Below are positions 22,595-26,742 of a stretch of 64,000 nt of DNA, in pieces. Within the stretch, counting starts at the first letter, position 1. Every line of letters begins with the position of its first letter. The translations under genes and the position numbers were made by a program. The notes under the pieces are model-generated. The model was not told the origin of the DNA and searched no databases. It worked only from the letters and a program-made list of their open reading frames with translations. The DNA lies in NCBI RefSeq assembly GCF_003095395.1, contig NZ_QEIJ01000011.1:1-64000 (forward strand), read 5' to 3'. The stretch is from Microbacterium sp. Gd 4-13. GTDB lineage: Bacteria > Actinomycetota > Actinomycetes > Actinomycetales > Microbacteriaceae.

Positions 22595-22668
22595 CGGGAT
22601 GTGGCGCAGCTTGGTAGCGCACTTGACTGGGGGTCAAGGGGTCGCAGGTTCAAATCCTGTCATCCCGA
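22595..22668 (+). tRNA. tRNA-Pro(GGG)
   Basis: A complete 74-nt cloverleaf without encoded CCA. The acceptor stem pairs CGGGATG with CATCCCG, followed by discriminator A. The anticodon stem is CTTGA/TCAAG around loop CTGGGGG with anticodon GGG, which reads CCC/CCU proline codons. The T arm contains GGTTCAAATCC. The 3' part of the gene is repeated at 26715-26742, marking it as the attachment site of the island downstream. Confidence 0.95.
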
Positions 22669-22673
22669 CGGAA
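22657..22673 (+). repeat. attL-like repeat (tRNA-Pro 3' end)
   Basis: CTGTCATCCCGACGGAA covers the last 12 nt of tRNA-Pro and 5 nt beyond. The same 17 bases occur at 26726-26742. The preceding CGCAGGTTC is also repeated at both places. Confidence 0.8.
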
Positions 22674-22677
22674 AAGA

Positions 22678-22716
22678 GGCCCGGACCATGCGGAAGTCGC
22701 ATGGTCCGGGCCTTCT
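22678..22716 (+). terminator. strong terminator after tRNA-Pro
   Basis: A perfect 15-bp stem (GGCCCGGACCATGCG with CGCATGGTCCGGGCC) with a GAAGT loop is followed by TTCTT. It starts 10 nt after the tRNA and ends its transcript. Because it lies inside the island boundary, the island appears to bring its own terminator. Confidence 0.88.
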
Positions 22717-22795
22717 TCGTTCCCGCTCAGTGTGTCTTTACCCCTAAAAGTCACAACTGGAGCAAGACCGATTTAGAACTCAAGGCTTCCGCGCG

Positions 22796-23206
22796 ATGCT
22801 TGCCCTCGAAGACGGTCACGACGACGACAATGAGCCGCGTGACGTGGTCGAGCCATTTGTGGAGGAGCCTCCGAAGACCATCGAAGTCGAGTACATCGGC
22901 GGGGTTGCGGTGGACAGTGGGCGGCTCATGATCACCGATCTTTACTAAGTCGACGCGGACTGGAGGCAGGAGCCCTTCGCTGTCGACGGCGAGGTCGAGC
23001 GCACCGAGGACACGGTGTTCCACTATTCGTACGATGTAGCGTGCCAGGCGACGCTGAGCGGCGGTGGACACGGCGAGCTGGCCTTCGAGAAGGGACACGC
23101 GGGAGCTGGTTTCGCCTTTGGCACGGCTTGGGGCGACGGCATCTACCCGGTGTACGCAGAAGAGAACGACGGGCGAATTGTGCGCGTGTATGTCAATATC
23201 GGTTAA
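22796..23206 (+). pseudogene. small hypothetical gene broken by an in-frame TAA
   Basis: One frame of 137 codons reads MLALEDGHDDDNEPRDVVEP, then VAVDSGRLMITDLY, then TAA at 22946, then continues VDADWRQEPFAVDGEVERT and ends with GTAWGDGIYPVYAEENDGRI before a stop at 23206. Both halves share one frame and together resemble a conserved hypothetical family with a DSGxLxIxDPCY-type motif and a late GDGxYPVY motif. The point of the stop is where PCY would be expected, so the gene is probably inactivated. A 63-residue downstream piece from GTG 23015 could still be translated. Confidence 0.6.
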
Positions 23207-23217
23207 GCGCACTGGCT

Positions 23218-24669: not shown

Positions 24670-24713
24670 GTCGCGACCATACCGGTGTGTGCAGCCGTGT
24701 TTGCTCACGCGCC

Positions 24714-24766
24714 GCGACAAGTCGGAATGACTACTCGAGAGGACACGAAGGTGCCCGACTTGTCGC
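24714..24766. repeat. 12-bp inverted repeat in island intergenic region
   Basis: GCGACAAGTCGG (24714-24725) and CCGACTTGTCGC (24755-24766) are perfect inverted copies with 29 nt between. It lies 45 nt upstream of the membrane protein start. It may be an operator for a dimer pair or a stem-loop. The rest of 24670-24919 shows nothing recognisable. Confidence 0.6.
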
Positions 24767-24919
24767 ATGGCCGGCATGATCGGGCATTGCCGCGACCCAC
24801 CTGTCCCGTGAGCTGATTGCGAGGAGCCAGGGGGGCGCAGATCCGTAATCGACCTCAGTGAACAGGGTCGGGCGGAGCTCTTCACACTCCGGAACGACGA
24901 CCATCAGGAGGTTGCAGCC

Positions 24920-25120
24920 TCAGGCATGTCCGGGCAGACAGCTCCCCTCGAACCCCTCCTCTAGGCTGTGGCCGTGGCTCCCGTAAAGCGTGTGAACGAG
25001 CAGTCTTGCGAGCGCGTCAAGCGGTTCCCCGTCGACGACGACGCATTCAGTCTTGGTTTCGAAGTCGACTGCCACCGACCCTCCGTAGAGCGACCCGAAC
25101 TGAATGGTTGGTGAAGGCAT
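24920..25120 (-). CDS. possible 66-aa protein
   Basis: An open frame starting MPSPTIQFGSLYGGSVAVDF and ending SLEEGFEGSCLPGHA has plausible protein composition and about 70 percent G/C at third positions. It faces the 452-aa gene head to head and would overlap its upstream ATG codons (25104 or 25119), but not ATG 25158. There is no ribosome binding site or -10 in the right place. It may be a real small gene or chance. Confidence 0.3.
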   Translation of the reverse strand: MPSPTIQFGSLYGGSVAVDFETKTECVVVDGEPLDALARLLVHTLYGSHGHSLEEGFEGSCLPGHA

Positions 25121-26462
25121 GCTCGACGAGATCTCAGCTCTTGTGTGTAGGACAGACATGTCGGCGTACAGCGATGACAAACTACTGATCAGCGCTCGCA
25201 AGGCGATGGAAGCGGACGCTACTCGGGCGGCAAAGCAGGCGAACAGTAGGGCTACCAAGGCCCGCATGCCCGCGACGCATGCTCCAGCGAACTACTACTC
25301 CACCAAGAAGCTAAGCGCGGTTCCGTCCCTCCACGGCGTACTAAGTGTGAGGCCTATGGATGCCCTGCTCGAGTTGGCCCGGGCCACGCCCCTCGGTGGA
25401 TCAAGTGCAGTCCTCGAGCGCTTTTCCCGTCAGTGGGCTTGGATTCGGTACCTGGGCGCGTTTGACCACCGAAACACCAAACTCATCCTTAGAGCATCTG
25501 CGGTTGCCAATGTCTTCGACCATGATCGTGCGCTGGTATCTGAACACATGGGGGTGGCCTTCGGCGTACTGGCGGCCAAGACCTGGTGTCGATCGGACGG
25601 TGCGAGTGGCCCCATCGAAGCTCTACCCGTACGTTCGCTGCTCAACGGTGTGATTGCTGGTCACCCCGCCGGCGATTTTGATCAGCGCGGTTCGCTAGAG
25701 CCGGACTACTTGCTGTCCTATCCGGACAAGTCGCCCACGTCTCGCCGGTATCGCGTCCTTGAATGTAAGGGGACGCAGCACGCGAGTTCCGTCGCGAAGG
25801 CGCTTGGCCACGCCGTCCGCCAGGTGGATGCGCTTCGGTATCAGGGCAGAGCAATCCCAGCACTTGCGACGGCGATCGTCTCCAACGAGCACGAGATCTC
25901 ACTGCATTCCATCGACCCGGATGATGAGGCGCCCACCATCGAAGTATCAACCGAGAACGCTTGGTCGCCGAGGGGATTGAGACGCTCAGCCTTGTCGCCG
26001 GGGATGGGGACGGAGGCCGAAGGGCCTCAGTGGAGGTTTGAACTCGATGAGTTCATCATTGCTCGGCTTGAGCGTCACCGCGTTGCCGCGCGGGCAGCCC
26101 TTGTGGGTGATCTGAATGTTTCGCAGGCCTGGCAGCGTGACAGCTGGTCTCCGGTGGACTTGTCTAGGCAACTCGTCGAACGGTCGGACTTCGGTGAGTC
26201 ATGGCTCGGTCAGGAGATCCTCGTTCGTGTCGGCGGTATTGGCGCGCGCATTTTCGTCGGCGCCCATCACAGCGTGGTCCGCGCGCTGGCATCGCTGGAG
26301 CTTGAGAGGGTTCTCACCGCGGAGGCGGAGTTCGACGGGACGCTCTTCGAACGGGTACAGGGCGAACGGTCGGATCAACCAGACGTTCGGCCTGGCTTCG
26401 AGTCGTCGATAACGTCCCTCGGTCCTGATGGCGTCATCGCTCGTATCGAGTTCATGGTCTGA
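25104..26462 (+). CDS. 452-aa protein with PD-(D/E)XK nuclease-like motif
   Basis: I do not recognise the family. Around residues 195-224 the sequence reads GSLEPDYLLSYPDK, a 10-residue gap, then YRVLECKGT, so Asp201, Glu220 and Lys222 fit the PD-(D/E)XK nuclease core, and the helix with Glu147 (SEHMGVAFG) could supply the upstream acid. The remaining C-terminal 230 residues show no motif I know. The N-terminal 60 residues are helical and charged. Starts at 25104, 25119 or 25158 are possible; the last has AGGA in front and avoids the divergent small frame. Island composition and the neighbouring TIR-like gene make a defence role plausible. DNA cutting is an inference. Confidence 0.6.
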   Translation: MVGEGMLDEISALVCRTDMSAYSDDKLLISARKAMEADATRAAKQANSRATKARMPATHAPANYYSTKKLSAVPSLHGVLSVRPMDALLELARATPLGGSSAVLERFSRQWAWIRYLGAFDHRNTKLILRASAVANVFDHDRALVSEHMGVAFGVLAAKTWCRSDGASGPIEALPVRSLLNGVIAGHPAGDFDQRGSLEPDYLLSYPDKSPTSRRYRVLECKGTQHASSVAKALGHAVRQVDALRYQGRAIPALATAIVSNEHEISLHSIDPDDEAPTIEVSTENAWSPRGLRRSALSPGMGTEAEGPQWRFELDEFIIARLERHRVAARAALVGDLNVSQAWQRDSWSPVDLSRQLVERSDFGESWLGQEILVRVGGIGARIFVGAHHSVVRALASLELERVLTAEAEFDGTLFERVQGERSDQPDVRPGFESSITSLGPDGVIARIEFMV

Positions 26463-26714
26463 GGCCTTTCATATTCGGCTTACAGTCGTGGCCTGCCAGC
26501 GTGCAGCGTCACCGACGTCAGAGGTGAAGCGCCTTGGGTCTTTGGTGGCTCCTGACCTGACGTGAGCTCCATTGGAGCGCGGCGGGTGGCGACGAGCGCG
26601 TTCCTCGGGAGCGACGCGCGTTCTGGCTTAGGCCAGTAGATCCAGTGCCCGCAGGAAGAACGTCGACCGCTGGCAGGAAAGCGAAGCGCGGTGGGTTGCC
26701 TCCAGGAGCACCAC
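26463..26714. other. island right end, no gene seen
   Basis: No convincing open frame on either strand. A short palindrome GCTCC-ATT-GGAGC lies near 26569. The stretch separates the last island gene from the right-hand tRNA repeat and would be where an integrase remnant might lie, but none is detectable. Confidence 0.5.
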
Positions 26715-26742
26715 CGCAGGTTCTGCTGTCATCCCGACGGAA
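26715..26742 (+). repeat. attR-like copy of tRNA-Pro 3' end
   Basis: CGCAGGTTC, a 2-nt spacer and then CTGTCATCCCGACGGAA. The tRNA has the same two blocks with a 5-nt spacer, so the copy lacks 3 nt and cannot form a full T arm. Confidence 0.8.

Follow-up and report, generated by a model that had tools for sequence, protein, structure and literature searches.

The window analysed here, 64,000 nucleotides of the Microbacterium sp. Gd 4-13 genome (contig NZ_QEIJ01000011.1, positions 1 to 64,000, forward strand), carries on its plus strand a tRNA-Pro(GGG) gene (22595-22669 by ARAGORN; the Rfam RF00005 match ends at 22668) whose 3' end is the attachment site of a small genomic island. An earlier note on this DNA had pointed to a 17-bp perfect repeat and a 9-bp block of the tRNA 3' end recurring about 4 kb downstream, and both are there. 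The 17-mer CTGTCATCCCGACGGAA (22657-22673), made up of the final 13 bases of the tRNA and GGAA, has an exact second copy at 26726-26742, 4,069 bp away from start to start; these are its only two exact copies in the whole genome (3,429,146 bp), with none on the other strand and none of a reversed-pattern control. The 9-bp block CGCAGGTTC lies upstream of both copies (22643-22651 and 26715-26723), at a distance of 5 nt from the 17-mer in the left copy and 2 nt in the right one, and these unequal spacers identify the right copy as a drifted fragment. We place the left attachment site (attL) at 22643-22673 and the right one (attR), a displaced piece of the tRNA 3' end, at 26715-26742, both on the plus strand; as the repeated tRNA bases are identical, they are not assignable to an element or a host copy.

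Each repeat copy is followed on its 3' side by a hairpin, a perfect 16-bp terminator-like one on the left (22677-22713, plus strand) and a second on the right (26755-26770), the latter within a tail at 26745-26780 on the plus strand. The right hairpin had been described in the earlier note as a second terminator, a call that we uphold from the match of this tail to the sequence directly 3' of the tRNA in the closest relatives and not from a terminator scan: the scan flagged the right hairpin on the plus strand and the left one on the minus strand only, and since its 2 sites are no surplus over the 2.7 expected in shuffled sequence, it is no evidence by itself. The segment between the repeats (22674-26714) is, as had been noticed, lower in G+C than its surroundings: it has 61.6%, the 20-kb flanks 70.7% and 69.5%, and 519 overlapping segments of the same length from the rest of the 64 kb are all higher, with a minimum of 67.9%.

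Among 366 searched genomes of the genus, two close relatives (G139 and G475) stood out in which the same site is empty. Both carry the identical tRNA and, directly after it, GGAAC; a few bases further on comes GGGTCGGCCG..., which corresponds to window positions 26745-26780, and this is how an unoccupied site had been predicted to read. Their 92-93% match to the left flank ends at the GGAA after the tRNA; flank blocks longer than 1 kb align at 87-93% identity and shorter ones at 80-94%, and the alignments to both genomes break at 22673 on the left and restart at 26715 on the right, with the junction aligned for G139. The hairpin now behind the tRNA (22677-22713) scores 48 and 42 when aligned with the tRNA-Pro tails of two other species (G017 and G129), against 20 for the tail of G139 (G475 was outside this comparison). 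Because this hairpin is unlike the G139 tail and like those of other species, the tail behind the tRNA is identified by the alignments as foreign and brought in by the element; the native one, with its terminator hairpin, was pushed to the right end by the insertion.

Within these boundaries, the feature nearest to the tRNA is a decayed DUF4241 gene (22796-23206, plus strand) with an in-frame stop at 22946-22948, whose C-terminal part is still recognisable: the piece after the stop matches PF14025 at E 5.5e-5 and 23.8 bits, under the 27-bit cut-off, and the remnant matches PHROG 5209 at E 2.2e-7; the piece before the stop has no family. It is followed on the minus strand by the gene for a TIR-domain protein of 258 aa (23218-23994; PF10137, E 1.2e-34), which matches the PADLOC candidate family PDC-S35 at E 2.2e-84 over residues 1-255 and profile positions 1-262 of 264, that is, at full length. 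Plasmids of Arthrobacter and Glutamicibacter encode relatives of this protein at 47-48% identity over 99%, and PF10137 is present in 13 of 149 sampled genomes of the genus, this one included (12 above the cut-off). Next on the minus strand is an open reading frame (ORF) of 266 aa (24085-24885; 194 aa if the internal ATG at 24669 is the start) for a putative one-helix protein, with a single hydrophobic segment (hydropathy peak 1.88, residues 90-109); it has no match in Pfam, NCBIfam or PADLOC and none to phages, PHROG 736 being reached only at E 0.24. The last is the gene for a 452-aa protein (25104-26462, plus strand) of an unnamed Actinomycete family, with a PD...ExK motif (P200 D201 ... E220 C K222). 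Judging from family and context, the TIR candidate and the PD...ExK protein most likely serve anti-phage defence.

That the interval holds neither a housekeeping gene nor an integrase, as previously stated, agrees with our searches. Family scans, which covered six ORFs of the interval and left out many other mechanically called ones, found no family of housekeeping, relaxase or conjugation genes in those six, and a hidden Markov model (HMM) of 410 positions, built from seven integrases of the tRNA-Pro site, gave no match in the island at E<=1e-3. A tblastn search of the island for a decayed integrase with site integrases as queries returned noise only (best E 0.074). A phage satellite was considered and rejected, there being no integrase, phage-hijacking or packaging family among the scanned ORFs (six with Pfam and NCBIfam, five with PHROG). 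The genome as a whole has eight PF00589 matches, and seven of these recombinases, one of which adjoins tRNA-Phe/Asp/Glu, reach at most about 30% identity to the site integrases over more than 300 residues, and up to 41% over short stretches. We therefore reject present mobilisation by a resident site-specific integrase, seven of the eight recombinases not being close to those of the site. Separately, a 9.3-kb contig of the same genome (C16) carries three tyrosine recombinase genes in tandem on one strand, at about 6031-8464.

Across the genus, elements integrate at the tRNA-Pro(GGG) gene, a hot spot with adjacent tyrosine integrases, in line with the premise of the earlier note that tRNA 3' ends are integration sites. 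The tRNA query was matched in all 149 sampled genomes of the genus, and our survey comprised 97 loci from 96 genomes, the window included, with 2.7-19.3 kb read downstream of each; one locus without a full-length tRNA (L069) and three from genomes already represented (L064, L066 and L075) were left out, as were four genomes found later (G475, G513, G544 and G656), among which only G544 has a second copy, at +9316. A same-strand downstream copy of the 31-nt tRNA 3' end, allowing up to 6 edits, is present at 26 of the 97 loci and a reverse-strand copy at none; the right copy in the window is too drifted for this threshold, and the window is not counted among the 26. An integrase ORF that covers at least 340 of the 410 HMM positions, which we call full-length, lies within 500 bp of the tRNA end at 17 of the 97 loci, and 17 more have a fragment only. 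Several diverged integrase types use the site.

Before their second copy, six of the 26 bounded islands have a full-length integrase, 12 a partial one and eight none by this HMM, which would miss distant recombinases; the weak match in G127, which spans 288 positions in a frame of 463 residues, could come from an intact integrase of another type. The eight islands without a match span 2.1-11.1 kb, compared with 10.2-15.8 kb for the six with a full-length integrase ORF. With eight of 26 in this class, the integrase-less state is common at the site, and the window adds a ninth integrase-less island to a crowded locus. Integrase fragments stand at +194, +6495 and +11001 behind the tRNA-Pro of G147, and such rows of remnants look like the accretion from which cis-mobilizable elements (CIMEs) arise. 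A literature search on Microbacterium islands and on defence islands at tRNAs in Actinobacteria returned no title on this site; it covered titles only and does not prove that the site is unreported.

Several further observations concern this locus in other genomes. Multiple integrase fragments or copies stand in tandem behind tRNA-Pro at L096 (G147), L154 (G022), L152 (G038) and L160 (G080), apparently from successive insertions. Two other integrase-less tRNA-Pro islands hold PADLOC candidates, PDC-S06 at L092 (G055; E 3e-115) and PDC-S64 at L081 (G091; E 1e-21); among the eight proteins scanned for these, the two from G011 had no match. At L081 (about 11401-11817, minus strand), the first ORF behind the tRNA appears by eye to begin like a helix-turn-helix excisionase and then to be frame-shifted, possibly a relic of a lost integrase module. 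The native-type terminator region is duplicated about 150 bp behind the first copy at L062 (G085) and L063 (G035).

We consider it probable that the window contains a 4,069-bp, integrase-less genomic island of the CIME type that was inserted by site-specific recombination in the 3' end of tRNA-Pro(GGG), is now probably stranded and likely carries defence cargo. Direct observation covers the two boundaries, the vacant site of two relatives, the foreign tail that now follows the tRNA and the native one, which has been displaced to the right end. An island that enters a tRNA would rebuild the tRNA gene and push its old 3' end downstream, marking both boundaries, and this one may have been moved by a tyrosine integrase belonging to a different element of the same target, which acted in trans or, from a tandem position, in cis. 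Past movement in trans seems likely because something had to insert the island; that the island is probably stranded now follows from the failure to find such an integrase in its own genome (seven of eight recombinases compared), from the drifted attR and from the broken cargo gene. The earlier note had offered a remnant or a satellite moved in trans as alternatives: the observation behind it is real and its interpretation largely right, with the CIME-like remnant favoured and a satellite that is still moved in trans disfavoured on those same three grounds.

Several points weigh against this interpretation. No integrase remnant or transfer gene is recognised in 22674-26714 that would prove descent from an integrative and conjugative element (ICE) or an integrative and mobilizable element (IME), and one recombinase of the genome (C1:545402) was left out of the comparison. 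Element-like tails stand at loci without integrase remnants (G017, G129 and G133) as well as at one with fragments (G070), and for that reason no donor can be singled out. Loss of the island from G139 or G475 is conceivable in principle, although neither has a second tRNA fragment. The 97 loci, finally, are not a random sample, having been drawn in part from right-flank matches, mostly by BLAST score rank and from the 149-genome sample, and the lengths read downstream are unequal.

The closest competitor, which we consider unlikely, holds that the island is an active satellite, one of a recurrent mobile class of small integrase-less islands that keep their attachment sites and defence cargo and regularly borrow the integrases of larger elements at the same tRNA. 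The eight bounded islands without an integrase match, their small size next to the islands with a full-length integrase and the several diverged integrase types at the site are what such a class would leave. The cargo of the window, however, has one relative only in the other searched stretches (G091, about 31-35% identity; the comparison started from the window cargo), the seven compared recombinases are not close to the site integrases, and drift in the att copy is accompanied by a broken cargo gene. Homologous recombination between the tRNA-Pro loci of two species, with the donor already holding the island and no integrase acting in this lineage, could exploit the 75-bp identity of the tRNAs among many species and would account for a left tail like those at the tRNA-Pro of others. 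We judge it very unlikely: an exchange through the flanks is expected to bring donor sequence past one boundary, yet identity to the relatives runs up to 22673 and resumes from 26715, as site-specific insertion predicts. That the second repeat is a chance match in a variable patch of low G+C, an idea for which the shortness of the repeat (17 bp and 9 bp) speaks, we rejected as having a negligible chance of being true, since the only two copies of the 17-mer in 3.43 Mb are these, and the segment that it brackets is absent from two relatives.

The 452-aa protein deserves separate consideration. It has no family above cut-off in Pfam, NCBIfam, PADLOC or PHROG, even with the alignment of its family as query; a DUF3323 match (E 0.0086) falls below the DUF3323 cut-off, and no relevant solved structure was found (best E 0.056 with a two-row profile and 1 with a 12-row one). 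AlphaFold2 gave a mean predicted local distance difference test (pLDDT) of 33.3 from one sequence and 33.5 from two, too low for the fold to be read, so that the nuclease call rests on the motif, by which we regard the protein as putatively nuclease-like, of the PD-(D/E)XK type. In the genus sample it has relatives in two of 149 genomes, its own included; the other is G091, whose relative matches at 35% and stands at most 0.8 kb behind the same tRNA-Pro(GGG), inside a bounded island without an integrase match. A scan of genome contigs with two short peptide patterns returned the G091 locus only; a two-row profile searched over 345 genomes of the class did better, with hits in 10 genomes, its own included, and at 11 further places. 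Among 299 genomes of the taxonomic family only the window matched, a phylum search of 366 genomes gave two genomes, again counting its own, and plasmids and two scans of viral contigs gave no match.

Together, the window, G091 and the 11 places of the class search make up 13 members. P-D and E-x-K are kept by 11 of the 12 that were aligned, the exception being L211 (G729), with P-L and D-C-R; the thirteenth, L194, a near-copy of L193, stood outside the alignment and has the motif. Four of the 13 lie between a tRNA and a displaced 3' fragment of it: those of the window and G091 at tRNA-Pro, that of G923 at tRNA-Ser (its fragment differs by 2 edits over 26 nt) and, at tRNA-Lys, one of the G787 copies (1 edit over 35 nt). 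Tyrosine recombinases are present in the Ser and Lys islands too, and the one in the Lys island seems to be broken across two frames; a protein at L210 is a tyrosine recombinase. The G729 member is 0.9 kb behind tRNA-Pro(GGG), with no fragment detected there. For five of the other eight, 40 kb were examined and for three, on contigs of 17-21 kb, 11-14 kb; no tRNA was found in any of these stretches. Among these eight, the G945 member adjoins a tyrosine recombinase, and the G696 locus has a weak integrase match (E 8e-4). As a control, five arbitrary 40-kb stretches from two of these genomes contained a tRNA in one case and a fragment in none, a sample too small to prove an excess. G787 carries three different members of the family (L202, L203 and L204), one of them in the tRNA-Lys island. 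It is possible, if rather doubtful, that this is an undescribed nuclease family, specialised as cargo of tRNA islands across Actinomycetes and probably acting as a stand-alone defence nuclease, and that the Microbacterium tRNA-Pro(GGG) site runs a pool of small integrase-less defence islands that are exchanged by means of borrowed integrases.

The flanks of the island are themselves variable. Just upstream of the tRNA, an LtrA-like gene (21724-22568) is disrupted, falling into two frames; G475 is longer at two points, by about 240-250 and 92 bp, and G139 keeps little of the gene, so that the gene seems to be decaying in the clade. To the right, 26965-31726 varies in comparison with L059 and L184: G139 is without most of 27323-29722, the multicopper oxidase region; between 28959 and 29719, G475 contains additional sequence.

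Our findings describe a cleanly bounded, integrase-less island with candidate defence genes and empty sites in two relatives, at a proline tRNA gene where many elements land within one genus. Its interest is raised somewhat by the hot spot, by the proportion of integrase-less islands there and by the PD...ExK family. Finders that require an integrase, such as Islander, would reject this island and the eight others without an integrase match, and the unnamed nuclease-like family, which turns up repeatedly in tRNA-bounded islands, is amenable to phage-defence tests.

Among known systems, the 258-aa TIR protein matches PDC-S35 at full length, and PDC families are candidates: according to PMC12988326, they come from a guilt-by-embedding screen, with validation pending for most of the core set, and other PDCs are named in PMC11514479. 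Islands that integrate in tRNAs restore the tRNA gene and displace its old end, so that both boundaries are marked, and Islander looks for a tRNA and a 3' fragment of it in the same orientation, a length of 2-200 kb and an integrase, as PMC4383910 describes. The window island shares with these the tRNA, the same-orientation displaced 3' fragment downstream and a length above 2 kb (4,069 bp); it has no tyrosine integrase on board and is thus not of the Islander class, although its boundaries work alike. CIMEs keep attL and attR, have lost the genes for integration and transfer and may move with an element that integrates at one of their att sites, in the account given by PMC5704250. The island differs from them in that no relic of an ancestral ICE or IME is visible and no integrase-bearing element stands in tandem at the locus, and resembles them in its retained attL and attR, in that no integration or transfer genes were found in it and in its use of a tRNA 3' end that integrase-bearing elements also use: it is an integrase-less, CIME-like tRNA island, a kind already known.

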